Source of the DNA: Bacteroidales bacterium
Lineage (GTDB): Bacteria > Bacteroidota > Bacteroidia > Bacteroidales > Marinilabiliaceae
DNA: 64,000 bases
Assembly: GCA_024401395.1 (NCBI GenBank)
Contig: JAKSLD010000007.1
Coordinates: 62,001-126,000, forward strand
Reading direction: 5' to 3'
This document shows, in pieces, positions 11,504-61,074 of the stretch (position 1 is its first letter; every line of letters starts with the position of its first letter). The position numbers and the translations under genes were made by a program. The notes beneath the pieces are model-generated. The model saw only the letters and a list, made by a program, of their open reading frames with translations. It was not told where the DNA came from and made no database searches.

Positions 11504-11577
11504 TTAAAAAAATTGCGAGCAAACAGGGACTTCTCTTATATTAGCAACTGTCTAGCCTTAGACTTGTGACGTATCTC
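11504..11577 (+). repeat. Headed 11-nt repeat array
   Basis: An A-rich head with TTGCGAGCAA (11513-11522) is followed by consecutive 11-nt units: ACAGGGACTTC, TCTTATATTAG, CAACTGTCTAG, CCTTAGACTTG, TGACGTATCTC. The units share a (A/T)CT(A/T)G-like ending. The array lies between the divergent genes at 11429 and 11632. Confidence 0.65.
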
Positions 11578-11631
11578 GTTCCTATTGGCAATTATGAAGT
11601 TTGACTAAATGGTATTACTTTTATAGTCGAT

Positions 11632-12441
11632 ATGCAGAGATATAACGTTATAGGCGATATTCATGGCCGTACTAAATGGAGGATGCTTGTTGTAGATGAC
11701 GCAACGAATATCTTTCTGGGCGACTATTTCGACCCGTATTCCTTCATGTCGTTCGATGATATGAAGGCTAATTTCCTCGAGATAAAGGAATATTGCAGGG
11801 AACATGGAGGAGTAATGCTTATGGGTAATCACGATCTGCATTATTTTCACCATGAGGAGTCTTCTCGAATGGATGTTGACTCTAAGGATGAGATTAAGGA
11901 GTTGCTTGGCGGAATTGTGTCCGAAAGTTCAATAGCGTATGCCATAAATGAGAGTATTATATGCTCTCATGCTGGCTTTACTGACCCTTGGGTACGGGTT
12001 GAGTCGGAGATTCGCTCGGAATATAAGCTGGATGAAACGTCTGATGCTTGCCGTCTGGCCGACTTCGCCAATGAGTTGTTCTGCAAGCAGTATTACGATA
12101 TGTGCAATGGCAGGGTAGAAGAGTCGTTGCCTTCGTTCCGTTTCAGGAATCATGCAAGGCATATCGACTCCTACGGTATTTCGCCCGCCCAATCTCCTGT
12201 ATGGGTTCGCCCCGAAACTCTATGCCAATACGCATTCAACAAACAGAAAATAACACAGATAGTAGGCCATACTCAGCAATATGGTATCAGACGAATATCT
12301 CTTACGCCCGCCAATCCAGGCCCGGAACTGATACTAGTAGACTGTCTTGAGCACCCTACAGCCCAGTCATTACTCATCACCCTAAACGATGACGACACCA
12401 CAACCTTCGAAATCCACTATATGTACCGCCAATCTCCCTAA
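11632..12441 (+). CDS. Metallophosphoesterase
   Basis: A 269-residue calcineurin-like phosphoesterase. The metal-binding blocks are visible: GDIHGR (residues 8-13), GDYFDPYS (about 31-38), GNHDLHYF (about 64-71), CSHAGFTDPW (about 112-121) and GHTQQYG (about 214-220). These provide the two-metal site of Ser/Thr-phosphatase-like and diadenosine-tetraphosphatase-like enzymes. No signal peptide is present, so it is cytoplasmic. The substrate cannot be inferred. It appears to be a single-gene unit between a repeat array and the PnuC gene. Confidence 0.9.
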   Translation: MQRYNVIGDIHGRTKWRMLVVDDATNIFLGDYFDPYSFMSFDDMKANFLEIKEYCREHGGVMLMGNHDLHYFHHEESSRMDVDSKDEIKELLGGIVSESSIAYAINESIICSHAGFTDPWVRVESEIRSEYKLDETSDACRLADFANELFCKQYYDMCNGRVEESLPSFRFRNHARHIDSYGISPAQSPVWVRPETLCQYAFNKQKITQIVGHTQQYGIRRISLTPANPGPELILVDCLEHPTAQSLLITLNDDDTTTFEIHYMYRQSP

Positions 12442-12591
12442 CCGCCTACCCAAAGCCACGATAACCATTTAAATTCTCCCTCCCCAAGTAGAATTAGCCA
12501 TAGCCTATGATGAATCCATATAAAAATGGAACCGGAGGCTCCTCTTTAGTGACATCTCGGTATGCTTTATAGCTGTCACCTCTTTGCAGAT

Positions 12592-12622
12592 TTTGTTTTC
12601 CGATTTATCTGCTCTACTTTTG
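12592..12622 (+). promoter_or_regulatory. Promoter of the PnuC-type transporter
   Basis: TTTG at 12592-12595, a 19-nt spacer, and TACTTTTG at 12615-12622. Transcription would start near 12626, which excludes the upstream in-frame ATG at 12562 and supports the start at 12643. Confidence 0.75.
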
Positions 12623-12642
12623 CATCTCCAATCATCGAAAGA

Positions 12643-13338
12643 ATGAGTTTTTCAGATATAGTAAAAAATGAGTTCTCCGGCTGGAAGAGCTGGGAAATTA
12701 TATGGATGGCTGTCGCTTGTGCCGCTATCGTTATCCCTTCTTATATTGCAGGCAACACCCCTTTGCGACTTGTTTGTGGCGCTTGCGGAGCAATAAGCGT
12801 CGTGCTCACAGGCAAGGGTAAACTTAGTTGCTACCTGTTTGGTACAGCTCAACGTCTGATATATGCCTATATAGCGTTTGGGGCAATGTTTTATGGTGAG
12901 GTAATGCTCAATCTCCTGTATTTCTTCCCATTGGAGTTCTATGGTGTCTATGAATGGTATAAGAACATGGATTTCAGCACGCACGAGGTAAAGAAAAGAC
13001 GTATGTCTGCCAGACAACGCTGGATCGTAGCCATAGTAGTAGTTGTCGCAACTGTCCTCTATGGTCTCTTCCTAAAGTATCTCAATGGTAAGTTGCCTTA
13101 TGTCGACTCTCTATCTACAGTGGTCTCTGTTGTTGCCATGCTAGTTACCATCAAGATGTACATGGAGCAATGGCTTCTCTGGATGTTCATAAACATTGTG
13201 ACCGTGGGTATGTGGGCGTATGATTTGTACAATGGCGGACAGAATATTGCCGTACTGCTTATGTGGAGTGTATATCTCGTGAATTCTATAATTATGTTCT
13301 TCAGATGGCGTAGAGAAACTTCTGCTCAACTGTCATAG
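12643..13338 (+). CDS. PnuC-family vitamin transporter
   Basis: A 231-residue inner-membrane protein with about seven hydrophobic helices and PnuC-family features: a YFFPLEFYGVYEWYKN block after helix 4, and MEQWLLWMFINIVTVGMWAY near the C-terminus. PnuC proteins take up nicotinamide riboside; close relatives in Bacteroidetes (PnuT-type) take up thiamine. No neighbouring kinase or salvage gene decides between them, and I found no TPP-riboswitch consensus in the roughly 200 nt upstream. The start was chosen from the promoter and the loss of a non-conserved 27-residue N-terminal extension. Confidence 0.82.
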   Translation: MSFSDIVKNEFSGWKSWEIIWMAVACAAIVIPSYIAGNTPLRLVCGACGAISVVLTGKGKLSCYLFGTAQRLIYAYIAFGAMFYGEVMLNLLYFFPLEFYGVYEWYKNMDFSTHEVKKRRMSARQRWIVAIVVVVATVLYGLFLKYLNGKLPYVDSLSTVVSVVAMLVTIKMYMEQWLLWMFINIVTVGMWAYDLYNGGQNIAVLLMWSVYLVNSIIMFFRWRRETSAQLS

Positions 13339-13375
13339 CATTTGCAAGCATTTGTCATTCTTTGGCAGTTATATG

Positions 13376-13409
13376 TTTGGTAATTTTCCGCTAAATATCA
13401 CTATTTTTG
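13376..13409 (+). promoter_or_regulatory. Promoter of the membrane protein at 13427
   Basis: TTTG at 13376-13379 and TATTTTTG at 13402-13409, with a 22-nt spacer, slightly longer than usual. It supports a short leader and the ATG at 13427. Confidence 0.55.
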
Positions 13410-13426
13410 TTCAAAACTATAATAAC

Positions 13427-14110
13427 ATGAAGGTATCCCTTATACTCTCGTATGCTCTCTCCATTGTCGCTTTTTTGATGATGATTAATCATCTTCCTGG
13501 TAATGGCCTTTTGTTTGTTGCCTCGTTTCTATTGCAAGTATTGCTGTCTGTAATATATGCTATCCGTTCTAGAGAATTTAGACCGTTGTTAGTCTATTCT
13601 TTAAGTTGTTCTGTATTGATACTGTATTTGGTTGCTCGACTTATGTTCTGGCCATATATGTATCTTGTTGAAGCTGCTATATTTCTCGGGGCGTTGCATT
13701 TATATAATGACTACAAGAGGGGTTGTCTATATAAGATTAGAAATGGTGTACTGATAATAATTCTGATTTGTGGCATAGCATTGTCTTTCGTTAACACAAG
13801 TTCTTTTTACAAATTCAAGTACGGCAGCACATTGTTGTCTGCTAATGAAGTAAGCTATGATGAAAATTGTGCATACAGTTCTGTATCATACCAATGTACT
13901 CATTGGGCTCATTATTCCTATTTCTTAGCAATTGAAGGTAATAAAACGGAGGCGTTGGAGTCTATACTAGTAAGTATAGAGATAGCAGATAGGGCGAATT
14001 GTAAATCTGAGGTCATAGAAGCATTGCAACAGCAACGTCGTCTTATTGAAACCGAGCATAATACGCAAGAGGAACTCTTGCCTGTCTTAATCGAAGAATG
14101 GAATTTCTAG
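13427..14110 (+). CDS. Uncharacterised membrane protein
   Basis: A 227-residue protein with about five closely spaced hydrophobic helices in the first 130 residues (from LILSYALSIVAFLMMI to GVLIIILICGIALSFV). A C-terminal soluble part follows, with a helical, TPR-like stretch (YSYFLAIEGNKTEALESILV, then SIEIADRANCKSEVIEAL). I do not recognise the family. The upstream ATG at 13352 lies before the promoter and was rejected. It seems to be transcribed alone. Confidence 0.65.
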   Translation: MKVSLILSYALSIVAFLMMINHLPGNGLLFVASFLLQVLLSVIYAIRSREFRPLLVYSLSCSVLILYLVARLMFWPYMYLVEAAIFLGALHLYNDYKRGCLYKIRNGVLIIILICGIALSFVNTSSFYKFKYGSTLLSANEVSYDENCAYSSVSYQCTHWAHYSYFLAIEGNKTEALESILVSIEIADRANCKSEVIEALQQQRRLIETEHNTQEELLPVLIEEWNF

Positions 14111-14145
14111 GTTAATGTCATTCATTATCGTTCTTCATCAAAGTC

Positions 14146-14352
14146 TTAAGTTTGTAAGAATTCCAGGATTTCTATGTGGTGAGAAAAACTTATAGCAAAG
14201 AAGTCTGACCAGTCAAAATCGTTATAGGTAGAACGGTTAAGCGTTGTAAGCAGCAGATTTTCATTGACCTGTAATTCGTTCATTGCTATTGGACGTTTTA
14301 TTACATTATTCCATTGCTCATAAAAGATACTTCGTTGTAATAAATGTACCAC
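14146..14352 (-). CDS. Possible small protein downstream of the zeta toxin (doubtful)
   Basis: A minus-strand frame of 68 codons opening with GTG, or of 45 codons from an internal ATG at 14283. It lies 32 nt after the zeta-toxin stop. The composition (NDFDWSDFFAISFSHHIEIL) looks protein-like, but no family, promoter or conserved start is visible. It may be a remnant or a chance frame. Nothing else is visible in the 14111-14384 spacer. Confidence 0.3.
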   Translation of the reverse strand: MVHLLQRSIFYEQWNNVIKRPIAMNELQVNENLLLTTLNRSTYNDFDWSDFFAISFSHHIEILEFLQT

Positions 14353-14384
14353 CTTTGCACTCGAAAATCATTTACGATGCATTG

Positions 14385-14990
14385 TTATAGCTTGCTATGT
14401 GCTAAATTCTGCGCCCACTCAGGAACTTCTTGGAAATATCTTTTCGCTACATTGCCATCAATAGTGCGATATAGCAATCTAGGAAGAGTATCTTCAATGG
14501 AGTTGTCGTAAATATATGCTCTGTCGACAAATTTAATAGCATCAGCTGCATTTAAAAGCGACTTGTAATAGCGATTTATAATTTTTGATATGGGAACTTC
14601 ATGGCCTCCATCAAGGAATCTTTTGGTTATTCTGGCTACATTGATTTCTGGACTATTTGTGCATACAAAAAAGAAACGAATAAAGAAGCCGCATTCATGA
14701 GCCTTGCGTAAGAACTCTAATTTTTCGTCAGATGAAAACACTGTCTCAAAAACAAAGTCTCGTTTCTCTTCCAGACATTTATACCTAAGTTCTGTAGCGT
14801 ATTGCGCAGCTTTTAAAACTGCATTTTGGGAATTCCAATCGCCAAATATTTCTTGCGCAATGTTGTCGGGATTTATGTATAGGCTACTTTCCGTCCATTC
14901 ATTAGCAAGCAGTTGAATTGTCGTAGACGTTTTGCCAGAACCATTAGGTCCGGCTACAACACATAGGACAGGTTTACGCTCATTGGTCAT
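14385..14990 (-). CDS. Zeta-toxin-like P-loop kinase
   Basis: A 201-residue P-loop protein of the zeta-toxin family. It has a Walker A motif GPNGSGKT at residues 14-21, a conserved NPD segment in YINPDNIAQE (about 38-47) and an FVFETVFSS motif after it. A basic region follows (NVARITKRFLDGGHEVPISK) as in homologues. Zeta toxins phosphorylate UDP-N-acetylglucosamine and so poison cell-wall synthesis; many chromosomal homologues in Bacteroidetes are uncharacterised. It follows a small acidic-helical gene by 2 nt, which suggests a toxin-antitoxin or regulatory pair. The family is clear; toxicity is inferred. Confidence 0.85.
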   Translation of the reverse strand: MTNERKPVLCVVAGPNGSGKTSTTIQLLANEWTESSLYINPDNIAQEIFGDWNSQNAVLKAAQYATELRYKCLEEKRDFVFETVFSSDEKLEFLRKAHECGFFIRFFFVCTNSPEINVARITKRFLDGGHEVPISKIINRYYKSLLNAADAIKFVDRAYIYDNSIEDTLPRLLYRTIDGNVAKRYFQEVPEWAQNLAHSKL

Positions 14991-14992
14991 GT

Positions 14993-15178
14993 CTATTCTT
15001 TTCTACGTTCCTCGATTTGTCGTTTTAACTCCTCCATCCTACGGGAAAGTTCTTCTTTGACTCTTATGGTTGATTGTCGAGCAGCTTCTTGCACTCCAAG
15101 CATTATTGCTTCGAGCATATCGTCTGTTGGTTCCTCCATAGAGTTTAATCTGTATGATTGAAGTTCTTCTTTCGACAT
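14993..15178 (-). CDS. Small helical protein, putative antitoxin partner
   Basis: The start at 15178 (MSKEELQSYRLNSMEEPTDD) gives a 61-residue protein that is almost entirely helical, with a charged C-terminus (RVKEELSRRMEELKRQIEER). Upstream codons to 15238 precede a -7-like TATCTTTG (15207-15200) and were excluded. It is immediately upstream of the zeta-like kinase in a two-gene operon. The position and size suggest an antitoxin, but it does not resemble epsilon antitoxin by eye, so the role is inferred from context only. Confidence 0.7.
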   Translation of the reverse strand: MSKEELQSYRLNSMEEPTDDMLEAIMLGVQEAARQSTIRVKEELSRRMEELKRQIEERRKE

Positions 15179-15238
15179 GGCTTTTTTATTTGGTATAGGC
15201 AAAGATAATGAATGATTTTGACATTTGCATAACAACAA

Positions 15239-15274
15239 AAACCATAAACGATAACAACAATTCGTTTATGGTTT
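15239..15274 (-). terminator. Terminator of tmRNA
   Basis: A perfect 12-bp inverted repeat (15239-15250 with 15263-15274) with a 12-nt loop. On the minus strand it is followed by a T-rich run. It lies about 20 nt past the tmRNA 3' end. Confidence 0.8.
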
Positions 15275-15292
15275 CTATTCATCATTAAATCG

Positions 15293-15688
15293 TGGAGCTG
15301 CGGGGGATCGAACCCCGGTCCAAACATCGCAAGAATATGATTTCTACATGCTTAGCCTTTTCTTGGTTTTCGTGATGGCTGTGGGTAAAGGCACCCGAAA
15401 CCACCCTTATCTCTTTAAATCTCATCACAGGCAAGGAGCATACCAGTGACCATCCCGGAATTTCCAGCACCTCTGAACCAAACGCCTCCTGGATTCGGCT
15501 TTTGAGAGATGTCTCGTCTCAGCCTCTTAGGCCGAGATAAAACCTATCTACTGTACTTCGATTAGGCAGCGAGAGCGTAATTGTTTTCGCCAGTTATAGT
15601 TCGAAACCCGAGATTTAAGAGCCGTAGTTCCACCAGCTCTGCATGCTTACATACCCCCATCAAATGCTGTCAAATCCATGTCAACCCC
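15293..15688 (-). ncRNA. ssrA: tmRNA
   Basis: Transfer-messenger RNA, which rescues stalled ribosomes. The 3' end carries a tRNA-like T-arm and acceptor strand (GGACCGGGGTTCGATCCCCC, then GCAGCTCCA ending at 15293). The 5' end (GGGGTTGAC from 15688) pairs with it to form the 7-bp acceptor stem, including G-U pairs. The tag reading frame (15591-15562) encodes GENNYALAA followed by TAA, preceded by the usual resume region. The genome sequence after the discriminator A reads CGA, so the 3' CCA is not encoded and must be added. Length is about 396 nt. Alternative frames drawn across this stretch are not genes. Confidence 0.97.
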
Positions 15689-15721
15689 AAGGTGTATGCC
15701 TATCTGTTACGGATAGGAACG

Positions 15722-15753
15722 CAAAATTAGCGTTATGTTTATTCTTATCCAAA
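15722..15753 (-). promoter_or_regulatory. Promoter of ssrA
   Basis: On the minus strand, TTTG (15753-15750), a 20-nt spacer, and TAATTTTG (15729-15722). Transcription would start about 30 nt before the mature 5' end. The trimmed precursor leader contains a CCTATC/GATAGG hairpin. Confidence 0.8.
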
Positions 15754-15773
15754 TTTATTCGCTTAAAATTGAG

Positions 15774-15805
15774 TTTGCATTGTAGGTATTTTCTGACTAC
15801 TTTTG
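15774..15805 (+). promoter_or_regulatory. Promoter of the plsC-prfC region
   Basis: TTTG at 15774-15777, a 20-nt spacer, and TACTTTTG at 15798-15805. It is divergent from the ssrA promoter; the two -33 boxes are about 20 nt apart. Confidence 0.8.
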
Positions 15806-15847
15806 CAAGTTGAAATATAATGCATTTTAGATAGTTATAGGATTTCA

Positions 15848-16543
15848 ATGTACGCTATATACAAATATCTATTTGTAGTGCCAGTATTCGCTGTCATTAC
15901 GGTGGTGTCTACCGTATTCATTGTCATACTGGGTTTTATCAACCCTAGCCTTACATACTACTGCGGAGTGGTGTGGGCAAAAGTTATGCAGTGGATAACA
16001 CCAATGCCTGTTGAGGTAGTGGGTAGGGAGAATGTGAAGCCAGGTCAGTCTTATGTCATTGCCTGCAACCACCAAGGGGCATATGATATTTTCGCAATTT
16101 ATGGTTCTCTCGGCATTAATTTCCGTTGGATCCTCAAGCAGGAACTCCGAAAGGCTCCCGTACTCGGATTCGCTTGTAAGCACATGGGACATATCTTCAT
16201 CGAACGTTCTTCACGCCGTGCAGCATACGATAGTATCCAACGCGCCAAAAATATTCTTACAGGTGGCACATCGGTAGTTATTTTCCCTGAGGGTACCCGC
16301 AGCGGTAAGCCAGAGATGGGTCCTTTCAAGCATGGTGCATTCAAGATGGCTATGGACCTCCAACTCCCTATCCTCCCAGTGTCTATCAAGGATACTTATA
16401 AGGTAATGGGTAAGAATCTTGCCTCGCTCAAGCCTGGCAAAGTGACAATGACAATACATAAACCAATAGATATAACAGAGTACGAGGAACGACGCGATGA
16501 CCTGATAGAGGCTGTGCGTAGTTCAATAGCTAGTGCGGTATAA
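15848..16543 (+). CDS. plsC: 1-acyl-sn-glycerol-3-phosphate acyltransferase
   Basis: A 231-residue membrane-associated acyltransferase that converts lysophosphatidic acid to phosphatidic acid in phospholipid synthesis. An N-terminal hydrophobic segment (about residues 5-35) is followed by the catalytic HX4D motif in CNHQGAYD (His75, Asp80). The substrate-binding blocks FIERSSRR and FPEGTRSG (146-153) and the LPVSI block follow. Length and motif order are typical of PlsC. It is the first gene after a clear promoter and overlaps or nearly abuts prfC, so it likely leads that transcript. Confidence 0.95.
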
Positions 16544-16553
16544 CGAAAGATTT

Positions 16554-18128
16554 ATGCTAATAGACGAAATTCAACGCAGGCGCACATTCGCCATCATCAG
16601 TCACCCTGATGCCGGTAAGACAACATTGACCGAGAAACTGCTCCTCTTCGGTGGGGCTATTCACGTGGCTGGTGCTGTAAAGAGCAATAAGATTAAGAAG
16701 ACTGCAACGTCGGACTTCATGGAGATTGAGAAGCAGAGAGGTATCTCTGTTGCGACTTCCGTGATGGGTTTTGAGTATGATGGCTATAAGGTCAACATTC
16801 TCGATACTCCAGGTCACCAGGACTTTGCCGAGGATACATTCCGTACCCTCACCGCTGTAGACAGCGTTATTATTGTAGTCGATGCCGCAAAGGGTGTAGA
16901 GACACAGACTCGTAAGCTCATGGAGGTCTGCCGTATGCGCAATACTCCTGTGATGATATTCATCAATAAGATGGACCGTCCTTGTGGTGATCCATTTGAC
17001 CTTCTTGATGAGTTGGAAAAGGAACTCCATATCGGTGTTCGCCCTCTTAGCTGGCCTATCGGTAATGGCGAGACTTTCAAGGGTGTATACAATCTCTTTG
17101 AGAACAGCCTCTATCTCTATGAGGCATCTAAGCAGACGGTTCAGGAGGGTATAGCTATCGCTGATGTGGCTGACCCACAACTCGATGCTATGGTGGGTGA
17201 ACGTGCTGCAGAGCATCTTCGCGAGGAGTTGGAACTCGTTGCCGGCGTTTATACAGATTTCGACAAGGAGGCATATCTCCGAGGTGAGGTAGCTCCAGTA
17301 TTCTTCGGTTCTGCGTTGAACAATTTCGGTGTACGTGAGTTGCTCCACTGTTTCTTGCGCATTGCTCCTCAGCCAGGAACTTCGCAGACTGAAACTCGAA
17401 TTGTTCATCCAGAGGAGGAGAAGTTCTCTGGTTTCGTATTCAAGATTCACGCCAATATGGACCCTAACCACCGTAACCGTATCGCTTTCGTGAAGGTCTG
17501 CAGTGGTAAGTTCGAGCGTAATAAGGCATATCGTCATGTTCAGCTGGGTAAGGACCTCAAGTTCTCGAGTCCAACAGCCTTCATGGCCGATAAGAAGAGT
17601 GTCATAGATGAGGCTTATCCTGGCGACATCGTGGGTATCCCTGATTCGGGTAACTTCAAGATTGGCGACTCGCTCTCAGAGGGCGAGAAGTTGGTCTTCA
17701 AGGGAATCCCAAGTTTCTCTCCAGAGCTTTTCCGTTATATCGAGAATGATGACCCTATGAAAGCCAAGCAGCTCGCTAAGGGTATCGACCAGCTTATGGA
17801 CGAGGGCGTAGCTCAGTTGTTTGTCCATCAGTTTAATGGCCGTAAGATTATCGGTACTGTAGGTGCTCTCCAGTTCGAGGTTATCCAATACCGACTCCTC
17901 CATGAGTATCAGGCTGCCTGTCGCTACGAGGGAATCAGCCTCTACAAGGCTTGCTGGATCGAGAGTGATAATGCGGCTCAGCTCGATGAGTTCAAGAAAC
18001 GTAAGGTCCAGTACATGGCCAAGGATAAGTGGGGTAGAGATGTGTTCCTCGCAGAGTCTAACTATATGCTCCAGATGGCTCAGGAGGGCTTCAAGGACGT
18101 GCGTTTCCATTTTACTAGCGAATTCTAA
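16554..18128 (+). CDS. prfC: Peptide chain release factor 3
   Basis: A 524-residue translational GTPase that recycles RF1 and RF2 from the ribosome. The G motifs are visible: SHPDAGKTT (G1), the GIS switch region ([10 protein letters not shown]), DTPGHQDF (G3) and NKMDRP (G4). The RF3-specific C-terminal domains end with FHFTSEF. The start at 16554 ([15 protein letters not shown]) matches family N-termini; an in-frame ATG at 16533 would overlap plsC. Its place near prfA, the gene for RF1, makes functional sense. Confidence 0.96.
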
Positions 18129-18155
18129 GAAATCAATAGACATACACCTATATAT

Positions 18156-19334: not shown

Positions 19335-19358
19335 AATTTCATAGATATAACAATATAA

Positions 19359-20471: not shown

Positions 20472-20487
20472 GAAAACTTTCTATTCT

Positions 20488-20542
20488 GCTTCTCTAGTAG
20501 TTCTCTTAACGCTCTCTATAAGCACGCTTAATACAGAGACTA
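20488..20542 (+). repeat. Headless 11-nt repeat array between prfA and the FKBP gene
   Basis: Consecutive 11-nt units TGCTTCTCTAG, TAGTTCTCTTA, ACGCTCTCTAT, AAGCACGCTTA, ATACAGAGACT. Its central part (GTTCTCTTAACGCTCTCTAT) recurs exactly at 44492-44511. Confidence 0.6.
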
Positions 20543-20599
20543 CCCAGAGTGAGTTTTGAATAGAAGAAATAATAACGAAAAAAGAAACTTTACAATACA

Positions 20600-27289: not shown

Positions 27290-27376
27290 AAAATGAAAAT
27301 TTACGATGAACAAGGGATTTCCCCGAGTGTAGACAGGGAGTAGACAGGGTCTTCTCCGAATATAGCCCGAACGCTC
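27290..27376 (+). repeat. Headed 11-nt repeat array
   Basis: The head AAAATTTACGATGAA (27296-27310) is followed by CAAGGGATTTC, CCCGAGTGTAG, ACAGGGAGTAG, ACAGGGTCTTC, TCCGAATATAG and CCCGAACGCTC. The unit CCCGAGTGTAG recurs in the array at 53009. The rest of the 27237-27598 spacer shows only an AT-rich inverted repeat near 27462-27492 and no gene. Confidence 0.72.
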
Positions 27377-27598
27377 GGACTACATAATCATCTTGCCGAA
27401 ACTGTGTCCTGATTTTGATTTTATTGCCCTTGCCGTGATTAAAAGGAAGAAAAATGCATCTTATAGATTGTCATATCGTTAGATTAATCTATATTTACAA
27501 GTCGAAACCGTATGTGTTTTCAGTTAGGACACAATAAATAGTATAATCAACATAACTAATGCCTTCGTAGGAGGTAGACTAATTAAACAAACAATACA

Positions 27599-28295: not shown

Positions 28296-28377
28296 TAAAA
28301 ACTGCGAGCAACCTTATACTTCTCTTATACTAGACCGTGACTAGCGACTGTTCTTGCAAAGGTCTTTTGCTCTCTTG
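28296..28377 (+). repeat. Headed 11-nt repeat array
   Basis: The head AAAAACTGCGAGCAA is followed by CCTTATACTTC, TCTTATACTAG, ACCGTGACTAG, CGACTGTTCTT, GCAAAGGTCTT and TTGCTCTCTTG. The first two units closely match those at 11523 and 47851. It fills the spacer between convergent genes. Confidence 0.68.
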
Positions 28378-30208: not shown

Positions 30209-30280
30209 CTTTTCAATGCACAAAGATACTCTCTTTTTCCCACTTTTTGTGCTTTTTTCTAGGCCTCTGGAAGAGGCTGG

Positions 30281-30379
30281 AATGTGACTTGACGTATTGT
30301 TATATGCTTGAATGTCAAATTTATAAAGGGTTGTGACGTGTGCTTGACGTGTCTGTATTTCACCCCTGACGTATTAATG
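30281..30379 (+). repeat. Weaker 11-nt-phased array upstream of the PUL
   Basis: Units in one 11-nt phase include AATGTGACTTG, ACGTATTGTTA, ACGTGTGCTTG, ACGTGTCTGTA, TTTCACCCCTG and ACGTATTAATG. The two CTTGACGT elements are exactly 55 nt apart. No A-rich head is present, and the middle units are degenerate. Confidence 0.4.
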
Positions 30380-38988: not shown

Positions 38989-39063
38989 AATTAAAAAATT
39001 ACGATGAACAAGGAGGCTCATCGTACGCACAAGCTACGCATCTGTGTACTTCAGGCTTATTTC
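38989..39063 (+). repeat. Headed 11-nt repeat array upstream of the GH3 gene
   Basis: The head AATTAAAAAATTACGATGAA (38989-39008) is followed by CAAGGAGGCTC, ATCGTACGCAC, AAGCTACGCAT, CTGTGTACTTC and AGGCTTATTTC. The head is almost identical to those at 47711 and 60446. Confidence 0.65.
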
Positions 39064-44484: not shown

Positions 44485-44522
44485 CCGTAGCGTTCTCTTA
44501 ACGCTCTCTATAACCTCTAACT
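44479..44522 (+). repeat. Headless 11-nt repeat array between the DUF2461 and GldB-like genes
   Basis: Units GACTGACCGTA, GCGTTCTCTTA, ACGCTCTCTAT and AACCTCTAACT. Twenty central bases are identical to the prfA-FKBP spacer array at 20501-20520. Confidence 0.6.
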
Positions 44523-44544
44523 ATACAGACAATACACAGACAGT

Positions 44545-45679: not shown

Positions 45680-46681
45680 CTAAAGGTTCTCAATCTCCTC
45701 TGCCGAAAGCCCCGTCATTAGCGCTATCTGGTCGCTAGGCATACCGTATGTTTTCAGGTTGGATGCAATCTCAAGCTGCTTTGTACGCTCGCCTTCTCTT
45801 TTCCCTTCCACTCTTCCTTCCACTCTTCCTTTTGCTTCCCCTATCGCTCTTCCTTCAGCTTCTCCCTTTGCTCTTCCTTCAGCTTCTCCTTTTGCTCTTC
45901 CTTCAGCTTCTCCTATTGCTCTCCCTTCTGCCATTCCCTTCGCCATACTAGTCTCTATAGCAATCCTCATCTTCTCCTTGCGAGAGAATTCCAAATTGTA
46001 TGCATCAAGATAGTGCTTATAACTTATGTCATAAGCAAGTCTATCCTCTGGCGACAGCTGATGATACTCAGCCACCTGCTCCAATCTCTTGAAGATCGGC
46101 ATATCTTCTGTATTTGTCAGTTGCTGCATGGTTCCCATGTTTTTCAGGTTATACATCCATGTGTCTAGTTTGGTTTCGCCTTGCAATGGCTCCTCTACAG
46201 TCAACGGAATCTGCAAGCATACCATACGTATCTTGTCAGAAAACGTCTCGTTTGTCGTAACATCAAAAAGCTTGATGTCATGTCGCAGTGATAAATCACT
46301 CCCTTCAAACAGTCCAAAGTTAGTAAAGATTATCGAATATACGGCTTTCAGGTTTACATAATGCCAGCCTTTGCCAGCTTCTCCCTGATTGGCTACATCT
46401 CTCGCCATGTAGTACACCATACGTTCCTTGAACCCCAGGGTACTCTCGTTCTGCATCTCTACGATAATCTTCTCACCACTGGACGTCGTACAGTGAATGT
46501 CGTAAATCACTGTCTTCCCTTCTTCGGAATCTCCCTTGATCTCTTTGTCTGAATAGACTAAATCCGTGAATTGCACCTCGCCCTCGAACAAGTCGTTCAA
46601 GAATGCAAGCAGAATGTCCTTGTTGCCAAAGATTCGCTTAAAGCCGAAATCAGTGAGCGGACAGATAAATCTCTTTTGCAT
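45680..46681 (-). CDS. Rpn family PD-(D/E)XK nuclease with repeat tail
   Basis: A 333-residue protein of the Rpn/transposase_31-like PDDEXK family. It opens with the hallmark PLTDFGFKRIFGNKDILLAFLND, and the nuclease core has YDIHCTTSSGEKIIVEMQNES (a D...ExQ pattern). The C-terminal part contains a tandem run of 8-residue repeats, EGRAIGEA and EGRAKGEA, which is a predicted charged helix, ending in an LxxLS-type helix (MTGLSAEEIENL). Rpn proteins are DNA endonucleases linked to recombination, and related ones act in phage defence. A -7 element TATATTTG lies upstream (46721-46714). Confidence 0.88.
   Translation of the reverse strand: MQKRFICPLTDFGFKRIFGNKDILLAFLNDLFEGEVQFTDLVYSDKEIKGDSEEGKTVIYDIHCTTSSGEKIIVEMQNESTLGFKERMVYYMARDVANQGEAGKGWHYVNLKAVYSIIFTNFGLFEGSDLSLRHDIKLFDVTTNETFSDKIRMVCLQIPLTVEEPLQGETKLDTWMYNLKNMGTMQQLTNTEDMPIFKRLEQVAEYHQLSPEDRLAYDISYKHYLDAYNLEFSRKEKMRIAIETSMAKGMAEGRAIGEAEGRAKGEAEGRAKGEAEGRAIGEAKGRVEGRVEGKREGERTKQLEIASNLKTYGMPSDQIALMTGLSAEEIENL
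45846..45941 (-). repeat. 24-bp tandem repeats in the Rpn-family gene
   Basis: Four consecutive 24-bp copies begin at 45846, 45870, 45894 and 45918 (GCTCTTCCTTCAGCTTCTCC plus 4 nt on the plus strand). They encode the EGRA(I/K)GEA repeats on the minus strand. Further degenerate copies extend towards 45800. Confidence 0.85.
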
Positions 46682-47710: not shown

Positions 47711-47773
47711 ATTAAAAATTTACGATGAACAAGGGACTATTAAGGGACTATCATAGGATTAGCATACCCTCAA
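47711..47773 (+). repeat. Headed 11-nt repeat array (first of two)
   Basis: The head ATTAAAAATTTACGATGAA (47711-47729) is followed by CAAGGGACTAT, TAAGGGACTAT, CATAGGATTAG and CATACCCTCAA. This is the cleanest example of the consensus NAAGGGACTAN. Confidence 0.75.
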
Positions 47774-47830: not shown

Positions 47831-47905
47831 AATAAAAAAATTGCGATGAAACTTATACTTCCCTTAGACTAGAAAGGGACTTGCAAGGGGTTGGCAAAGG
47901 ACCAC
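47831..47905 (+). repeat. Headed 11-nt repeat array (second of two)
   Basis: The head AATAAAAAAATTGCGATGAA (47831-47850) is followed by ACTTATACTTC, CCTTAGACTAG, AAAGGGACTTG, CAAGGGGTTGG and CAAAGGACCAC. With the array at 47711 it fills much of the 47574-48022 spacer. A -7 element TAATTTTG (47985-47992) for prs follows. Confidence 0.75.
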
Positions 47906-48022
47906 AATTCAACGTGTTTATAGCTCCTATCATTAAAATATTATAAATTTATCTATGCCCGTTAGGTCAATGAAAAGAATTGACTAATTTTGCACACATA
48001 ACAAGAACAACCTTTTATACAA

Positions 48023-49707: not shown

Positions 49708-49717
49708 TTTCTTTCCA

Positions 49718-51791: not shown

Positions 51792-51846
51792 TTCTGGCTA
51801 CGTATTATACTTAATTTGTACCTTTTGCTCACTTTTTTATCATCAA

Positions 51847-51879: not shown

Positions 51880-51936
51880 CAGTGTTGTCTGATGGTATAA
51901 TCAACAGCAATAAGGACAATTAGATATCAATAAGCT

Positions 51937-52090: not shown

Positions 52091-52105
52091 AGATTATATT
52101 TATAG

Positions 52106-52969: not shown

Positions 52970-52975
52970 TTATAC

Positions 52976-53030
52976 ATAAGGTCTTCCCCGAGTCTTCCCC
53001 GAGTTTAGCCCGAGTGTAGCCAAAGGGTAG
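52976..53030 (+). repeat. 11-nt repeat array between pheA and the aminotransferase gene
   Basis: Units ATAAGGTCTTC, CCCGAGTCTTC, CCCGAGTTTAG, CCCGAGTGTAG and CCAAAGGGTAG in perfect 11-nt phase, without an A-rich head. It shares CCCGAGTGTAG with the array at 27322. Confidence 0.75.
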
Positions 53031-53062
53031 AATTACACACACCGATTAATATTTATACAGCA

Positions 53063-54226: not shown

Positions 54227-54276
54227 TAGTCACAAATATTATAGTATAGATAATTTTTATTGATTTTTGATTGCTT

Positions 54277-54320
54277 ACGCTTCCTTGATGCTCCCTTAAC
54301 GTTCCCTTAAGGCTCCCTTA
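54277..54320 (+). repeat. 11-nt repeat array between the aminotransferase and DAHP synthase genes
   Basis: Units ACGCTTCCTTG, ATGCTCCCTTA, ACGTTCCCTTA and AGGCTCCCTTA: four consecutive copies, three nearly identical. It is the least degenerate array in the window. Confidence 0.8.
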
Positions 54321-54367
54321 AGAAAGCGAATCTAATGAAAGATTAATAATCAATATAATCAGATTGT

Positions 54368-55459: not shown

Positions 55460-55472
55460 TAATCTCAGTAAT

Positions 55473-56249
55473 ATGCGTATTTGTATCGTAGGTGCCGGCA
55501 AAATGGGTACCATATTGTCAGATTCTCTCTGTCTCCAACACGATGTAGCTGTGTATGACCGCGAGATTTCTCGTCTGCAATATGTCTTCAATACTCGTCG
55601 TTTGACTACAATGGAGGAAATCCGCGATTTCGATCCAGAGCTGCTCATCAACGCCGTTACTCTCAAATATACTATTCAGACATTTGAGGAGGTTCTCCCA
55701 TACTTGTCTCCTTCTTGTATGATCAGTGATATTGCGTCTGTAAAGACGGGCCTCAAGGATTTCTATGAGAAGTCGGGTCATCCTTTCGTGTCTACTCACC
55801 CTATGTTCGGCCCTACTTTCGCTAATCTTCGTGACCTTCGCAAGAATCACGCTATCATCATTCAAGAGGGCGACCATCTTGGTAAGGTCTTCTTTAAGGA
55901 TTTTTATGCAGGTCTTGGCTTGAACATACACGAGTACACTTTCCAGGGACATGATGAGACGACTGCCTATTCGCTCTCTATCCCATTCGTCTCTTCTATG
56001 GTATTCGCTGCTTGCATGAAGCCTCAGGATGCTCCTGGTACTACTTTTAGTAAGCATTTCGATACCGCAAAGGGTGTTCTCTCTGAGGATGATTTCCTCC
56101 TTACCGAGATTCTCTTTAATCCTTACACTCCTGAGCAGGTGGAGCGCATTCACGACCAATTGGGTCGCCTCGTGGAGATTATCAAGAAAAAGGATTCTGA
56201 GGCTATGCGTAACTACCTCAATGAACTTCGCGAGAATATCGCTAAGTAA
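55473..56249 (+). CDS. tyrA: Prephenate dehydrogenase
   Basis: A 258-residue NAD(P)-dependent prephenate dehydrogenase that makes hydroxyphenylpyruvate for Tyr. The Rossmann motif is IVGAGKMGTILSDSL at residues 4-18. The catalytic region contains SDIASVKTGL and STHPMFGPTF, and the C-terminal half is helical. It has no ACT domain. It closes the Phe/Tyr operon and is followed by a terminator. Confidence 0.93.
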   Translation: MRICIVGAGKMGTILSDSLCLQHDVAVYDREISRLQYVFNTRRLTTMEEIRDFDPELLINAVTLKYTIQTFEEVLPYLSPSCMISDIASVKTGLKDFYEKSGHPFVSTHPMFGPTFANLRDLRKNHAIIIQEGDHLGKVFFKDFYAGLGLNIHEYTFQGHDETTAYSLSIPFVSSMVFAACMKPQDAPGTTFSKHFDTAKGVLSEDDFLLTEILFNPYTPEQVERIHDQLGRLVEIIKKKDSEAMRNYLNELRENIAK

Positions 56250-56279
56250 GTACATTCCTTAAACTTAATACAAGAACAT

Positions 56280-56314
56280 CCGTAGTAGAATTGTTTCTAC
56301 TGCGGTTGTTTTTT
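56280..56314 (+). terminator. Terminator after tyrA
   Basis: An 11-bp stem with one mismatch (CCGTAGTAGAA at 56280-56290, TTCTACTGCGG at 56295-56305), a 4-nt loop and TTGTTTTTT. It ends about 16 nt before the aat start codon, so aat should need its own promoter or read-through. Confidence 0.78.
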
Positions 56315-56329
56315 CAAATAGAAGCCATT

Positions 56330-56992
56330 ATGGTATATATGCTGGATAATGACGAGTTTCGGTTCCCAGATCCGACAAAGATTCCTGAGGATAAGCGTGA
56401 GGAGTCGGGTATGATAGCCATCGGTGGCGACCTCCACCCGAAACGTCTCCTTAATGCTTATGTAAATGGTATCTTCCCTTGGACTGATATCAAGTCGGAG
56501 TATCTCCATTGGTATTGCCCGATGCAGCGCTTCGTCATTTTCCCCGATGAGATTCATGTATCCCACTCTATGCGCAACCTCTTTAACAAGGGGTTGTATC
56601 GTGTTACTATCGATACCGATTTTTCAGGCGTCATACATAATTGCTCTGCTCCTCGCATCCATGAGGAGGGCGCATGGCTCGGCGATGATATGATTAACGC
56701 CTACACTAAATTGCACGAATTGGGGTATGCCCATAGTGTCGAAGTATGGGATAAGGACCATAACCTGGTAGGCGGACTCTATGGCCTGTGGATTAAGCAG
56801 TGTTTCATAGGTGAGAGTATGTTCTCTATCGTTCCTAGCGGTTCTAAAGTTGCTCTCACTTGCCTCGCTTGGCATATGCAGAAGATTGGCGGTAAGTTCA
56901 TCGATTGCCAGATGGAAACTCCGCATCTCAAGTCTATGGGCGGTAGGTATATATCATATGCTGACTATATGGATTTGATGCATTCCAATTAA
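56330..56992 (+). CDS. aat: Leucyl/phenylalanyl-tRNA-protein transferase
   Basis: A 220-residue enzyme that adds Leu or Phe to N-terminal Arg/Lys of proteins, marking them for ClpAP through the N-degron pathway. Family blocks are FRFPDPTKIPEDKREESGMI, GIFPWTD, WYCPMQRFVIFPDEIHVSHS, GAWLGDDMINAYTKLHELG, HSVEVWD and GGLYG. The start at 56330 (MVYMLDNDEF) is used because upstream codons lie inside the tyrA terminator. Confidence 0.94.
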   Translation: MVYMLDNDEFRFPDPTKIPEDKREESGMIAIGGDLHPKRLLNAYVNGIFPWTDIKSEYLHWYCPMQRFVIFPDEIHVSHSMRNLFNKGLYRVTIDTDFSGVIHNCSAPRIHEEGAWLGDDMINAYTKLHELGYAHSVEVWDKDHNLVGGLYGLWIKQCFIGESMFSIVPSGSKVALTCLAWHMQKIGGKFIDCQMETPHLKSMGGRYISYADYMDLMHSN

Positions 56993-57075
56993 AAATACTT
57001 CTAAAAAATCTTAATTGCCACAACTTTTGCGCACTCTCTCCGTAATTATAGTCAACAACACTATTTTACAAGAGA

Positions 57076-57534
57076 ATGAAATTAGCAGAAGCATTAAGCC
57101 TTAGAGCAGATATCCAAAAACGCATCGACCAAATGCAAGGTCGATTAGAGCAGTCTGTCAAGGTTCAGGAAGGAGATGTCCCTGCAGAGGACCCTCAAGA
57201 GTTGTTCGCTGAATTGAATAATCTTGTAAAACAGCTGGAAGATTTGATTTTTAGAATCAACGTAACCAACACTAATACTATCCTTCCATGTGGTGAATCA
57301 CTGACACTTATGATGGCTCGACGCGAAGTCCTGACCAAGAAGGTGGCTATCCTTCGTTCAGCACTCAACAATGCGTTGCAGCTCAACGATCGATTCTCTC
57401 GTACCGAAATCAAGATGGTACGTACAGTAGACATTCCGACCCTCCGTAAACAGTGTGATACACTCTCTGAGGAGTTGCGTCTATTGGAAGTAGAGATTCA
57501 GTCAGCTAATTGGACTACAGATATCTGTGATTAA
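57076..57534 (+). CDS. DIP1984 family protein
   Basis: A 152-residue cytoplasmic, mostly helical protein of the DIP1984 family: KLAEALSLRADIQKRIDQMQ, then LNNLVKQLEDLIFRINVTNT, and LMMARREVLTKKVAILRSA. Coiled-coil stretches flank a short central loop (NTNTILPCGESLT). The function is unknown. It begins after a 75-nt spacer from aat. Confidence 0.88.
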   Translation: MKLAEALSLRADIQKRIDQMQGRLEQSVKVQEGDVPAEDPQELFAELNNLVKQLEDLIFRINVTNTNTILPCGESLTLMMARREVLTKKVAILRSALNNALQLNDRFSRTEIKMVRTVDIPTLRKQCDTLSEELRLLEVEIQSANWTTDICD

Positions 57535-57777
57535 AGCATTAAGGGTAACTTGTTCTGGGCGTATACAACCGCATCCTAAGGCGGTTTCTTGGGAAAAAAA
57601 TTATGTTGGGTTCGAACGGGTCATTGAACAAACCTCATTTTTCAGACCAGCACATCGCAACGTTCACATCCGTACAGAGTATACCGTACTACCGTGTATA
57701 GACAGAATAAGTGAGGGCGGGCAGTGGGTTTAATATTGATATTTCTTCAAACTGAATGTAATAACTAGATGTGTGTG
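57535..57777 (+). other. Unassigned transcribed-looking spacer
   Basis: No convincing gene is present. It contains a CCGC-GCGG hairpin (57569-57584), a GGGTTCGAAC element (57609-57618) and a TATAC/GTATA hairpin (57678-57700), and it runs into a terminator. A structured RNA or a long 3' UTR is possible; I recognise no known RNA family. Confidence 0.3.
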
Positions 57778-57778
57778 A

Positions 57779-57806
57779 AAAAGCGTGGCAGAGATGTCAC
57801 GCTTTT
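57779..57806. terminator. Bidirectional terminator
   Basis: AAAAGCGTG (57779-57787) pairs with CACGCTTTT (57798-57806). A and T runs flank it on both sides, between the DIP1984 gene and the convergent cysteine-cluster gene. Confidence 0.8.
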
Positions 57807-57807
57807 C

Positions 57808-58050
57808 TTATTCTTCTAGCGAAGATAGTATTCTCATTGCATCTTCTCTTGTCTCTCCACAGAACATAGGCTCTGCTTGAAATCCTCCGCATACCTTAGG
57901 CCTGTCGGGAGAATCGAATATCGCACACAGATTGTCCTCCGTAAGGTTTATGCACCTGACTCCTGCAGGTTTCCCATTGGGCATGCCGGGTATTGGTGAT
58001 GATATGGATGGGGCTATGCAGCACGCGCCACACCCCATTCGGCAAGGCAT
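57808..58050 (-). CDS. YkgJ-like cysteine-cluster protein
   Basis: A protein of about 80 residues with the zinc/iron-chelating cysteine-cluster pattern: CRMGCGACC, then [19 protein letters not shown] and [15 protein letters not shown], then a last Cys in MFCGET. The start at 58050 ([11 protein letters not shown]) matches the usual beginning of the family. ATGs at 58074 and 58098 would overlap the upstream gene by 11 and 35 nt. The metal ligand role is assumed from the family; the function is unknown. It is the last gene of a minus-strand cluster beginning at 61407. Confidence 0.85.
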
Positions 58051-58063
58051 AAATTGATTGCTA

Positions 58064-59524
58064 TTAGTACACATGAGCTCTTTGTTGGGGTTTGTCATAG
58101 AAATGCATCAATTCTCCTTTGTCAAATTCCATACGATTCACCTCAAATTCTGGACAGTTATACGACCTCAGGTCGTGGTCTTCTGTCTTTCTCGCATTTC
58201 GCTGTGGCAGTAAGAAGGGCTTACTCACATTCCCCTCTTCGTCAATATGGAATATGCAGAGCCTGGTGTGTAGCCCGTCTGTTCTTCTCGTCGCTACTAC
58301 AGCCCAACGCGAGTTGGTCGACCAGTTGTGATATGCTTCTGCGTATGGAGAATTTGCCTTGTCAAGAGAGTATATGGAGTCTTTCTGTATGTCATACATC
58401 CAAAGGTCTGATGCCGGATGCCAGATGGGGAAATTTCCATATTTCAATGATGACAGCATCACAAATCTTCCGTCTGGTGATGGTCTGGGGACAGACAGAC
58501 TGAGACCTCGATCCCTCATATCGGCTAATATATCTATCTGACGACCCACTTCACCCTTCTCCGCGTCAAATGCTACTCTGCAAAGCATATATCGTAGGGA
58601 GTCTTGCTTCTCTGGTACAGGCAGTGAATCTGCATGTACGTAATAGAGCCACTTGCCGCATGGCGAGAAGGCAGGGAAATTCTCAAAGTGCTTTGTATGT
58701 ATGTGGGGAGCCGACAATATGCTGTCTGTCTCTGTGTCGAATACCTGAATGTCAGATGCTCCGTCAAATACGTCTATTCTGTCGTTAGCTCCTGCATGGA
58801 ATAGCTGCCTGGTGGTGTTTGTAGAGAAGGCTATGTACCTTCCGTCCGGATGCCAATAGGCGTATGCAAAGGCATTGATATTATAGCATGTCTTTGTGTC
58901 GTAGTTCTTCTGCTTGCCTTTCTTCTTGATTATCGTTCCTCCTCGCTGCCCTCTAACATGAAGTACCATGTCTTTACTGTCGCCTTTCCTCGTAGCATGG
59001 CAGTTCATACACGAATATTGTAGCTCGTTGCAGTCTGTTACTGTATATTCTTCAAATGTCTGTAAGTCTCTCTGATATATTCCCACAGCGCTGAATGTCT
59101 CAAAGGCTGGTGCTATCCGTCGGTATGTGACATATTGGTCTATGGAATCCTCTGATACGTATATCTTGAACTTGCTATACGCTTTCCATTTTCCTCCCTT
59201 GTCGCATGTGTATACATTGACGTCGAGTTCTTCTCCTTTTGACTTGTTTATTACCTCATGCCACTGGTTGACATCCCAATGTGTATCTCTGCCATTCCAT
59301 TGACCGCGTATTTCAGCCTTGGCATTTGATATCTCTACGTCTATCGACTCTACGTCGTCTTCTTCTACCGTGAAATCTAATGGCGCAATGTTCACAGGAA
59401 TAGTCACTCCGATATAGTCGGGAAATATCGCAGGCATTTTATCGGCATTGCTGTATTTGTTCCCCACTTTCGGCGCTCCGCAACCGACAAGTAATAATAT
59501 GCTGAATATCAATAAATACTTCAT
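58064..59524 (-). CDS. TolB-like propeller lipoprotein with a CxxCH motif
   Basis: A 486-residue lipoprotein (lipobox LVGC, Cys about residue 15). An N-terminal beta domain (about 25-150) is followed by one c-type heme motif, CMNCH (Cys172, Cys175, His176). A PD40/TolB-like beta-propeller follows, with [34 protein letters not shown] and [15 protein letters not shown]. It is co-transcribed with the DUF6057 gene 11 nt upstream, a pairing I believe recurs in Bacteroidetes. Whether heme is attached is not shown; no cytochrome c maturation gene is in the window. Confidence 0.82.
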
Positions 59525-59535
59525 ATCCTCACTCT

Positions 59536-61074
59536 TTATCTTACCTGTTCATCGTCTTGGATTACTCGTTTCTCGTTCTGTGCCATCTGCATCCACACGA
59601 CGTAGTAGTCTCTTGCCAACCTGTTTTCTGCATTCTGCATACCTAGATGTTTTATGGCTTCTTCAGGGTGAAACTTATATTTGTTGAATATGAAGTCTCC
59701 CTCATATCTCACTCTTCTCATATATCCATACTCTGGATGCTGGTCTATCGTCTCTGGCTTCTCAATCATCGCCAGCATCTTTTCTGCCTTTTTCTTGTAA
59801 AACCAACTATCGAGTAGTATATGGCAGTATTTCTTGCAGACTACATAGTCGCCGTTGATGAGGTTTATTTCTGCCATTCTTTCTAGTGCCCTTCCTGATT
59901 TCTCAAAGTCGGTATTGGCTTCCATAGCTTCCATAGTGTACCTCAGTCCGGTATTCATATTGCCCATTCTGTACCATACTTCTGCCAAAGGAATAGCTGT
60001 GATGCAGTCTCTCTTCCAGTCGTTGAGCAGTCCTCTGGTTCCCAGTTGAGGAAATTGTCCTACTCTGTTTATCAGTTGCCCTTCCATCCCGAGTGCGAGG
60101 TTGGTATATACTAATGCCAACTGACTCTTTGGTCCTTTTTCGGCAGTCTTGATAACCTTATCCCAACGTCCGCATCTAACCCAATAGTCCATCTGCTTGA
60201 ATTGCTCTGATTGTGATGCCCCGATGTAGTTCAATGCCACTATCCCTCCGCATACGATGAATCCTATGCTCCAGCCCCATAATGCCTCTATCTTTGACCT
60301 GTACCTCTCAGTGTAGTGGGCTTCTATCAATATTACTATCGGAATTGCGAGACAACCATACATTACAAGGGGTATCTCAGCTGAATATCTGATATAGTCT
60401 ACGCCCCAGATCATAGTGTGAAGACGATAGGGCAACAACCTGAAAGATAAAAAAATTACGATGAACAGCAATGCTGCCGCTATGCAGCAGGTAACCATAC
60501 GCCTGTCATTCTTACGCTTGAATATCACGTCTCCTATGCTCAAAAGTAGATATACCATAGAGGCTGGACCAATCAGCCAATAGCCGATTATGGTTCCTGT
60601 GAACAAGAATATCGAGTATCCCCATTTCCCTTTGAATAGGGTATTGCATAGGAACAGACTTTGCGCAAGGGTTATAGCAACGACGAACGACATCTGGGCA
60701 TACTCGTTGAAGAGAAATATCAGTAGCAATGTCGGCAGTGCTAATGCTCTCACACTGCATATCCTGCCTGTGAAATATTCTATGACTTTCGCCGATGAAA
60801 GTAATGTCGCAATGAAAAGAAGTGCTACGACTATGGCTCCTGTAAGTCTGGCGTAGCAGAATTGCGTGATAAACCGTCCAATGAAATCAGATAGTCCGCC
60901 TGGCCTGCTGAACAGTCCTCCTATATAGTCGTCCGTATATAGAAGTAGTTGATATTGTTCTAGGAATTGTAAGTGTCCGAAGAAGTATACGTAGAAGTAT
61001 ATGAATAAAATAATCCAAGACACTAGCGCGATCGCCAGTGTCTTGTCTATCTTTTTTGCCAGCTCTTTTATCAT
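59536..61074 (-). CDS. DUF6057 family membrane protein
   Basis: A 512-residue integral membrane protein. About ten hydrophobic helices occupy residues 13-290 (from LAIALVSWIILFIYFYVYFF to WSIGFIVCGGIVALNYIG). A soluble C-terminal half follows with TPR-like helices (LALVYTNLALGMEGQLINRV, then NLINGDYVVCKKYCHILLDS). This is the layout of DUF6057. The family function is unknown. Its coding sequence carries, in antisense, a headed 11-nt repeat element at 60446-60487, in a membrane helix (LLFIVIFLSFRLL). Confidence 0.82.
   Translation of the reverse strand: MIKELAKKIDKTLAIALVSWIILFIYFYVYFFGHLQFLEQYQLLLYTDDYIGGLFSRPGGLSDFIGRFITQFCYARLTGAIVVALLFIATLLSSAKVIEYFTGRICSVRALALPTLLLIFLFNEYAQMSFVVAITLAQSLFLCNTLFKGKWGYSIFLFTGTIIGYWLIGPASMVYLLLSIGDVIFKRKNDRRMVTCCIAAALLFIVIFLSFRLLPYRLHTMIWGVDYIRYSAEIPLVMYGCLAIPIVILIEAHYTERYRSKIEALWGWSIGFIVCGGIVALNYIGASQSEQFKQMDYWVRCGRWDKVIKTAEKGPKSQLALVYTNLALGMEGQLINRVGQFPQLGTRGLLNDWKRDCITAIPLAEVWYRMGNMNTGLRYTMEAMEANTDFEKSGRALERMAEINLINGDYVVCKKYCHILLDSWFYKKKAEKMLAMIEKPETIDQHPEYGYMRRVRYEGDFIFNKYKFHPEEAIKHLGMQNAENRLARDYYVVWMQMAQNEKRVIQDDEQVR
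60446..60487 (+). repeat. Headed 11-nt repeat element inside the DUF6057 gene, antisense
   Basis: The head GATAAAAAAATTACGATGAA (60446-60465) is followed by CAGCAATGCTG and CCGCTATGCAG in 11-nt phase. The head shares AAAAAATTACGATGAACA with the array at 38989, though this gene runs the other way. Confidence 0.5.

Follow-up and report, generated by a model that had tools for sequence, protein, structure and literature searches.

The stretch of DNA analysed here (the window; 64,000 nucleotides, G000:C45:62001-126000) belongs to a Bacteroidales genome (G000; 3.30 Mb, 47 contigs, 97.9% complete), and its spacers carry a dispersed family of short arrays with an 11-nt period. A copy of this element begins with a conserved, A-rich head of 22 nt, behind which stands a short run of degenerate 11-nt units. 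The head reads TAAAAAAATT[A/G]CGATGAACAAG, with variants in which GC or CC replaces TG. Head searches and identity at lag 11 located the following copies, all on the forward strand. Heads stand before about six units at 27296..27380 (head at 27296-27314), about four units at 38994..39056 and about three units at 47715..47766. A second head type (CTGCGAGCAACCTT) precedes about three units at 28297..28348. Upstream of the phosphoribosyl pyrophosphate (PRPP) synthetase gene, a degenerate head is followed by 5 units (47836..47909; lag 11 and comparison with the related genome G012). Three headless arrays belong to a second subfamily with the pattern CTC[T/C]CTTAACG and lie at 20490..20544, 44486..44540 and 54277..54321, the last between the aminotransferase and 3-deoxy-D-arabino-heptulosonate 7-phosphate (DAHP) synthase genes. 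An array of CCCGAG units without a clear head (52982..53025, lag 11) lies between the prephenate dehydratase and aminotransferase genes.

An earlier reading of the window from its letters alone (the original prediction) had listed eleven spacer loci. Nine of them passed single tests on lag 11 (near 20488, 27311, 28312, 39009, 44479, 47730, 47851, 52976 and 54277; P <= 0.016, uncorrected for 11 tests). The locus near 11523 failed on lag 11 (P 0.72) but has a degenerate head of the GC variant at 11508..11526, found by sequence and head search, with a few decayed units up to about 11570. The locus near 30281 was dropped, with a lag-11 P of 0.14 and no head. Several (T)TGACGT(A/G)T motifs with irregular spacing occur at 30280-30375, upstream of a 1076-aa open reading frame (ORF), and are placed outside the family. 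Two more arrays had been said to lie inside genes, with no coordinates given. One candidate was located, a head with 2 mismatches (60451-60469) and about two unit-like stretches (60451..60490; lag 11, P 0.005), antisense within a DUF6057 gene (59536-61074). The two unit consensi proposed at that time match the two subfamilies. When spacers and coding sequence were separated by a simple longest-ORF rule without a gene finder, the window contained 13, 9 and 5 intergenic lag-11 loci with at least 13, 14 and 15 of 22 matches, whereas 100 dinucleotide shuffles averaged 2.5, 0.82 and 0.18.

The arrays are real and occur throughout the source genome. In a 464-kb sample that includes the window, lags 11, 22 and 33 gave 37, 26 and 12 intergenic loci. 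The other lags from 5 to 44 gave 0-5 loci each, except for 11 loci at lag 7. Intergenic identity was 0.304 at lag 11 versus 0.279 at lag 10 and 0.270 at lag 12, and it stayed at 0.304 once the window was removed. Predicted coding sequence in this sample showed no excess of lag-11 identity and had 6 lag-11 loci, compared with 0-8 at each of the remaining lags that are not multiples of 3. In 811.5 kb of G000, 58 spacer loci were found at lag 11 versus 2-11 at ten other lags, and for 45 of the 58 a profile of head plus units has a match no more than 250 nt away. This profile had 124 matches of at least 8 bits in the 811.5 kb, many of which had gone into building it, and none in the reversed sequence; a further 400 kb gave 42 matches versus 0 reversed. 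The genome-wide lag-11 excess is thereby confirmed in both samples against other lags, and the proposal of a dispersed family in constant phase is borne out. Absent from the original prediction were the conserved head and, as described below, the appearance of whole-element copies elsewhere in the genome and the empty sites in relatives. The head pattern AAAWTTRCGATGAACAAGG occurs at 199 places in the genome with up to 2 mismatches (92 forward and 107 reverse) and at 172 with up to 1, and its reversed form has no match at up to 2 mismatches. The second subfamily was found at 33 loci in 1.21 Mb versus 1 in a reversed control; AATACAG comes next in 18 of the 33, and some of them bear a head.

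Four related species of uncultured gut Bacteroidales carry the family in abundance, and 11 congeners nearly lack it. With one genome per species, the 15 genomes of the genus contain 199 (G000), 85 (G013), 65 (G012), 24 (G011), 2 (G007) and 1 (G004) heads, and the other nine have none. Outside the genus, 2 of 56 genomes had one match each at up to 1 mismatch (71 genomes of the family were searched). The phase of the units is retained in the related species. Identity to the HrpB protein of G000 is 80% in G011 and 79% in G013, compared with 47-59% in ten other congeners (G012 and G014 gave no match). For a metal ABC permease, the values are 84-86% for G011-G013 and 53-69% for the nine others listed. 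A public scan, from which the source genome was perhaps excluded, found the exact head AAAATTGCGATGAACAAGG in 34 stretches. Of these, 31 are in the metagenome-assembled genomes Bacteroidales Horse_feces89, Horse_feces91 and Bacteroidia S22M_St_71 and 3 in other taxa. By eye, no array accompanies the exact head where it occurs in 2 viral stretches and in 3 foreign genomes, and by our own estimate about 2 foreign-genome matches are expected.

Orthologous spacers were compared by eye. The spacer before the PRPP synthetase gene contains an element in both G000 and G012, oriented alike and with the right flank conserved; there are 5 units in G000 and 6 in G012, seemingly unrelated, and no element in G013 or G011. 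The spacer before the aminotransferase gene holds an array in G000 and none in G013 or G011. The spacer after it holds one in G000, none in G011 and none visible in G013; in G012 the region is split across contigs. The empty sites have diverged too far to locate exact element ends. Among 51 syntenic gene pairs shared with the G012 and G013 stretches, 49 have no head on either side. One of the other two has heads in both genomes with different units, and in the other a head appears only in G013's reading, in HrpB. Copies also occur at unrelated sites. L016 and L017 are near-identical, have different flanks and differ in length by one 11-nt unit, and L027 and L028 share an identical head plus 44 nt at different sites.

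Copies at unrelated sites, filled and empty spacers, one-unit differences and arrays far more variable than heads were thus all observed. They support the explanation that we tentatively put first, in which the family is a lineage-specific, non-autonomous dispersed repeat with a minisatellite behind a conserved head. Copies would be dispersed by some route that requires the head and no inverted terminus, and several head-plus-array blocks may run in tandem on one 11-nt grid. Units could turn over by slippage or unequal exchange, and ectopic conversion anchored on the common head would exchange sequence between copies. Local amplification of units, suspected from the start, agrees with the mutual information, which joins adjacent columns and columns 11 nt apart, and with the one-unit differences between copies and between species.

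Could the arrays instead be rewritten in place? The head would then be a genomic anchor, and a dedicated system would replace or extend the 11-nt-quantised arrays beside it, in spacers and genes at hundreds of places, and the arrays would change quickly beside unchanging heads. The PRPP synthetase site, where unrelated units and a one-unit difference share a right flank, fits such a process. So does HrpB (TIGR01970), in which head and array occupy one codon position in G000, G011 and G013 with different units. The window copy at 11508 and L130 (minus, 10787) are part of a paralogous 653-bp stretch of 93% identity, with 1 mismatch in the 218 nt upstream and 7 in the first 35 nt of the array. 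This pair is not decisive for hypermutation: its homology stops just past the head and array, and a recombination end suffices to explain it. Slippage and conversion account for most of the pattern, and no enzyme was found that tracks the arrays when two Pfam families, RVT_1 and Y1_Tnp, were compared. We therefore regard head-anchored rewriting as improbable. If true, it would be a non-coding, genome-wide counterpart of diversity generation.

The arrangement of heads bears on another possibility, a miniature inverted-repeat transposable element (MITE) with an inner minisatellite, BrickBuilt-like and seen mainly as fragments. Its dispersed, mostly intergenic location would fit, and L016 and L017 each terminate in a second-type head that is inverted. 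Inverted head pairs are rare, though. Within 300 nt, 4 inverted versus 35 direct pairs were found among 168 heads in 1.21 Mb of G000, and 0 versus 25 in the G012 and G013 stretches. Same-strand heads at this range in G000 are 44-220 nt apart, at multiples of 11 in 31 of 35 pairs (21 of 25 in G012 and G013). To our knowledge, no related insertion sequence (IS) ends exist for the heads, IS families not having been searched. A MITE origin is accordingly a doubtful choice, with little probability in our estimate. By inspection, many G013 arrays end in a tail of CTAG motifs about 9 nt apart. Immediately upstream of their heads, L011 and L018 have a common terminator-like inverted repeat (GAGG.TGTGTCAAATTAC.GACAC..CCTC), and another spacer repeat, (AATTAGG)n-like, adjoins some elements (L073, L126 and L261). 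A 24/48-nt tandem repeat (CTCTTCCTTC...) lies at window positions 45792-45931, inside an ORF on the minus strand (45680-46681).

Column statistics were taken from 181 heads gathered at up to 2 mismatches, so that the conservation of the head is partly set by the search. In the units, position 3 is rarely G, position 5 is C or T, position 6 is A or T and position 7 is mostly C or G. At positions 6-7, TC is favoured in unit 1 and AG in units 2 and 3. Transitions are the commoner changes in close pairs (507 vs 437 in overlapping pairs, 108 vs 59 in disjoint pairs), and a purely complement-type substitution pattern was rejected. Only position 6 changes exclusively between A and T (34/34; 6/6 in disjoint pairs). 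The constraint at positions 5 to 7 would accommodate a protein with one contact site in each unit. The closeness of 11 nt to one helical turn, pointed out in the original prediction, may or may not be meaningful. Head and units could thus be binding sites of a DNA-binding protein, for example a nucleoid protein, with one contact per turn and with arrays that arise and are kept by selection where they are helpful. Positions 3-7 read W S N W S in 0.67 of the units in G000, 0.41 in G013, 0.63 in G012 and 0.61 in G011, versus at most 0.20 at any other phase. Inside genes, conserved third positions of the head and heads that cause no length change point the same way. On the other hand, empty sites in close relatives imply that many places are dispensable, and the recent copies of whole elements require a copying process.

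An even spacing and a strand bias along the chromosome would have favoured such a protein, but both failed in a second sample. In the first 811.5 kb, parts of which had been picked for containing heads, the coefficient of variation of head spacing was 0.676 versus 0.875 (P 0.003; 98 loci, 82 intervals), and 58 of 82 neighbouring heads were on the same strand. Head strand also followed GC skew, as expected of replication polarity (rho -0.47, P 0.002; when restricted to third positions, rho -0.38, P 0.034, 32 stretches). The independent 400 kb gave a coefficient of 0.914 versus 0.943 (P 0.47), 13 of 23 same-strand neighbours and a rho of -0.13 (P 0.64), and these claims were given up. Only a shortage of intervals below 3 kb held there (0.043 vs 0.177, P 0.04). 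We consider selected protein-binding arrays rather unlikely as the explanation of the family.

A structured RNA or a short leader peptide appears highly improbable. The head would act as a translation start, in many arrays opening a frame about 6-9 codons long. It reads CG ATG AAC AAG GG, which we take to resemble a Bacteroidota translation start, and TAG-ending frames can be picked out by eye. The ATG is lost in the GC and CC variants, and heads show no preference for spacer type or gene orientation. Of the 170 tandem spacers of at least 60 nt, 43 contain heads, as do 12 of the 51 convergent and 17 of the 50 divergent ones; in tandem spacers, 26 heads run along the direction of the genes and 28 opposite to it. 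Ten heads are inside predicted ORFs. RNA hairpins between adjacent units are visible in single arrays, but 156 non-redundant arrays gave no pairing pattern or base-pair covariation. Folding barely exceeds that of shuffles (mean z -0.52 with the head, -0.13 for the units alone). At gathering thresholds, the only Rfam match in the window is the transfer-messenger RNA (tmRNA; RF00023) at 15290-15688 on the minus strand.

Several observations weigh against the non-autonomous dispersed repeat that we favour. Two concern heads inside genes, in four cases selected because G000 has a head there. The metal ABC permease (PF00950) has the head in G000, G012 and G013 and lacks it in G011, G006 and G010, and the head overlies codons without a length change relative to these genomes. 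In the DUF6057 gene the head is present in G000 only, was not seen in G012 or G013 and again causes no length change. Simple insertion is a poor explanation of such heads, which may owe their place to selection on the head or to head-anchored replacement. Third codon positions in the permease head are identical at 7 of 8 sites to G012 and at 7 of 8 to G013, versus 0.474 and 0.486 elsewhere in the gene (P 0.028 and 0.032, two tests that share G000). In HrpB the figure is 7 of 7 between G000 and G011, versus 0.422 in the rest (P 0.0025). This conservation fits selection on the head and conversion alike. HrpB has the head in G000, in G011 and, beside an assembly gap, in G013, and proteins with the head have 11 extra residues (33 nt) compared with six outgroup proteins. 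In a ComEC-like gene (PF03772) the head is present in G000 and, with 3 mismatches, in G013, and was not seen in G012 or G011. The in-gene head is therefore shared by 2 of 3 relatives for the permease, 2 of 2 for HrpB, 1 of 3 for the ComEC-like gene and 0 of 2 for DUF6057.

A third point is that no transposase, reverse transcriptase (RT) or other mover was found, IS families not having been searched. Of the ten window genes adjoining arrays, nine belong to known families and one to none, and family matches revealed no mobility gene or transposase among them. An RVT_1 RT, as a mover or for rewriting of the diversity-generating retroelement (DGR) type, was rejected: 7 of the 15 genomes in the genus carry it, four of them array-free or nearly so, and it is missing from G013 with its 85 heads. 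Y1_Tnp has no match in G000, G012 or G013 and 1 in G011, and does not track the arrays. Spread by phages or plasmids was rejected as well, since a single 211-nt query had no match in phage and plasmid collections. Among the RTs, L159 (G000:C10:3100-3840), G000:C27:2016-2723 and L160 (G011) are presumably DGR-like in anatomy. For L159, the best-scoring NCBIfam entry is a model of group II RTs, which stays below cut-off. L158 (G012:C195) is a retron-like RT by NCBIfam retron models, also below cut-off.

The last point concerns the flavour of arrays in each species. Array identity over units 1-3 is 0.457 within G000, 0.427 within G013, 0.418 within G012 and 0.422 within G011 (15 pairs). Between species it falls to 0.329, 0.350 and 0.331 for G013 with G000, G012 and G011, and is 0.379 for G012-G011, 0.419 for G000-G012 and 0.426 for G000-G011. 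The G013 arrays clearly stand apart, and the difference among the other species is small or nil. Because the G000-G012 value is about equal to that within G012, the case for a species flavour is weakened, which slightly lowers our confidence in the dispersed repeat. The family lends itself to a clear test that would tell selfish spread from a site-bound protein function and from targeted DNA rewriting. For annotators it is a caution that such arrays extend into coding sequence.

The family had not been recognised as a described element, and this still holds: it has no match in Rfam at gathering thresholds or in the plasmid, phage and paper collections searched. A search of titles and opening abstract lines, with most subscription journals outside its coverage, found no 11-nt arrays like these. 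A clustered regularly interspaced short palindromic repeat (CRISPR) array, which has identical repeats and unrelated spacers of constant length, was rejected from the head-to-head distances (44-220 nt) and the mutual relatedness of the units, cas genes not having been searched. A DGR target was likewise rejected; RVT_1 does not track the variable repeats across the 15 genomes. BrickBuilt of Porphyromonas gingivalis is similar in being dispersed and intergenic in a Bacteroidota genome, and is described as having 19 copies of 84-991 nt, with a minisatellite of 23-nt units in strain-variable number between a leader and a tail and with terminal inverted repeats that resemble IS5-family ends (PMC4596501). 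It differs from the present family, which has degenerate 11-nt units, about 200 heads, one conserved end and rare inverted ends. Terminal inverted repeats are expected of a MITE of the BrickBuilt type (MITEs are reviewed in PMC10969869); here inverted ends are rare, and two loci, L016 and L017, show them. Repetitive extragenic palindromic (REP) sequences are likewise short, present in hundreds of copies, mainly extragenic and sometimes in tandem arrays, and a REPIN is a hairpin-forming inverted doublet accompanied by the transposase RAYT (PMC3116915). Our arrays are in direct order, with no palindromic hairpin signal, no inverted doublets and no Y1_Tnp match for a RAYT in G000. Bacterial minisatellites, or variable-number tandem repeats (VNTRs), are tandem short units with gain and loss of whole units. 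The lag-11 periodicity, the L016/L017 pair and the 5 versus 6 units at PRPP synthetase show the same tandem units varying in number. Unlike in VNTRs, many loci share a head, and a common unit scaffold extends across the loci of the genome. The BOX elements of pneumococcus and the heptanucleotide STRR repeats of cyanobacteria are modular dispersed repeats with inner units in variable number, or tandem arrays of short units in spacers, and their unit lengths and heads differ from those here. The family adds a kind of dispersed bacterial repeat for whose anatomy we found no match among the described ones: it has a single conserved end, rarely an inverted one, and its array, built in steps of 11 nt, turns over from species to species beside a head that does not.

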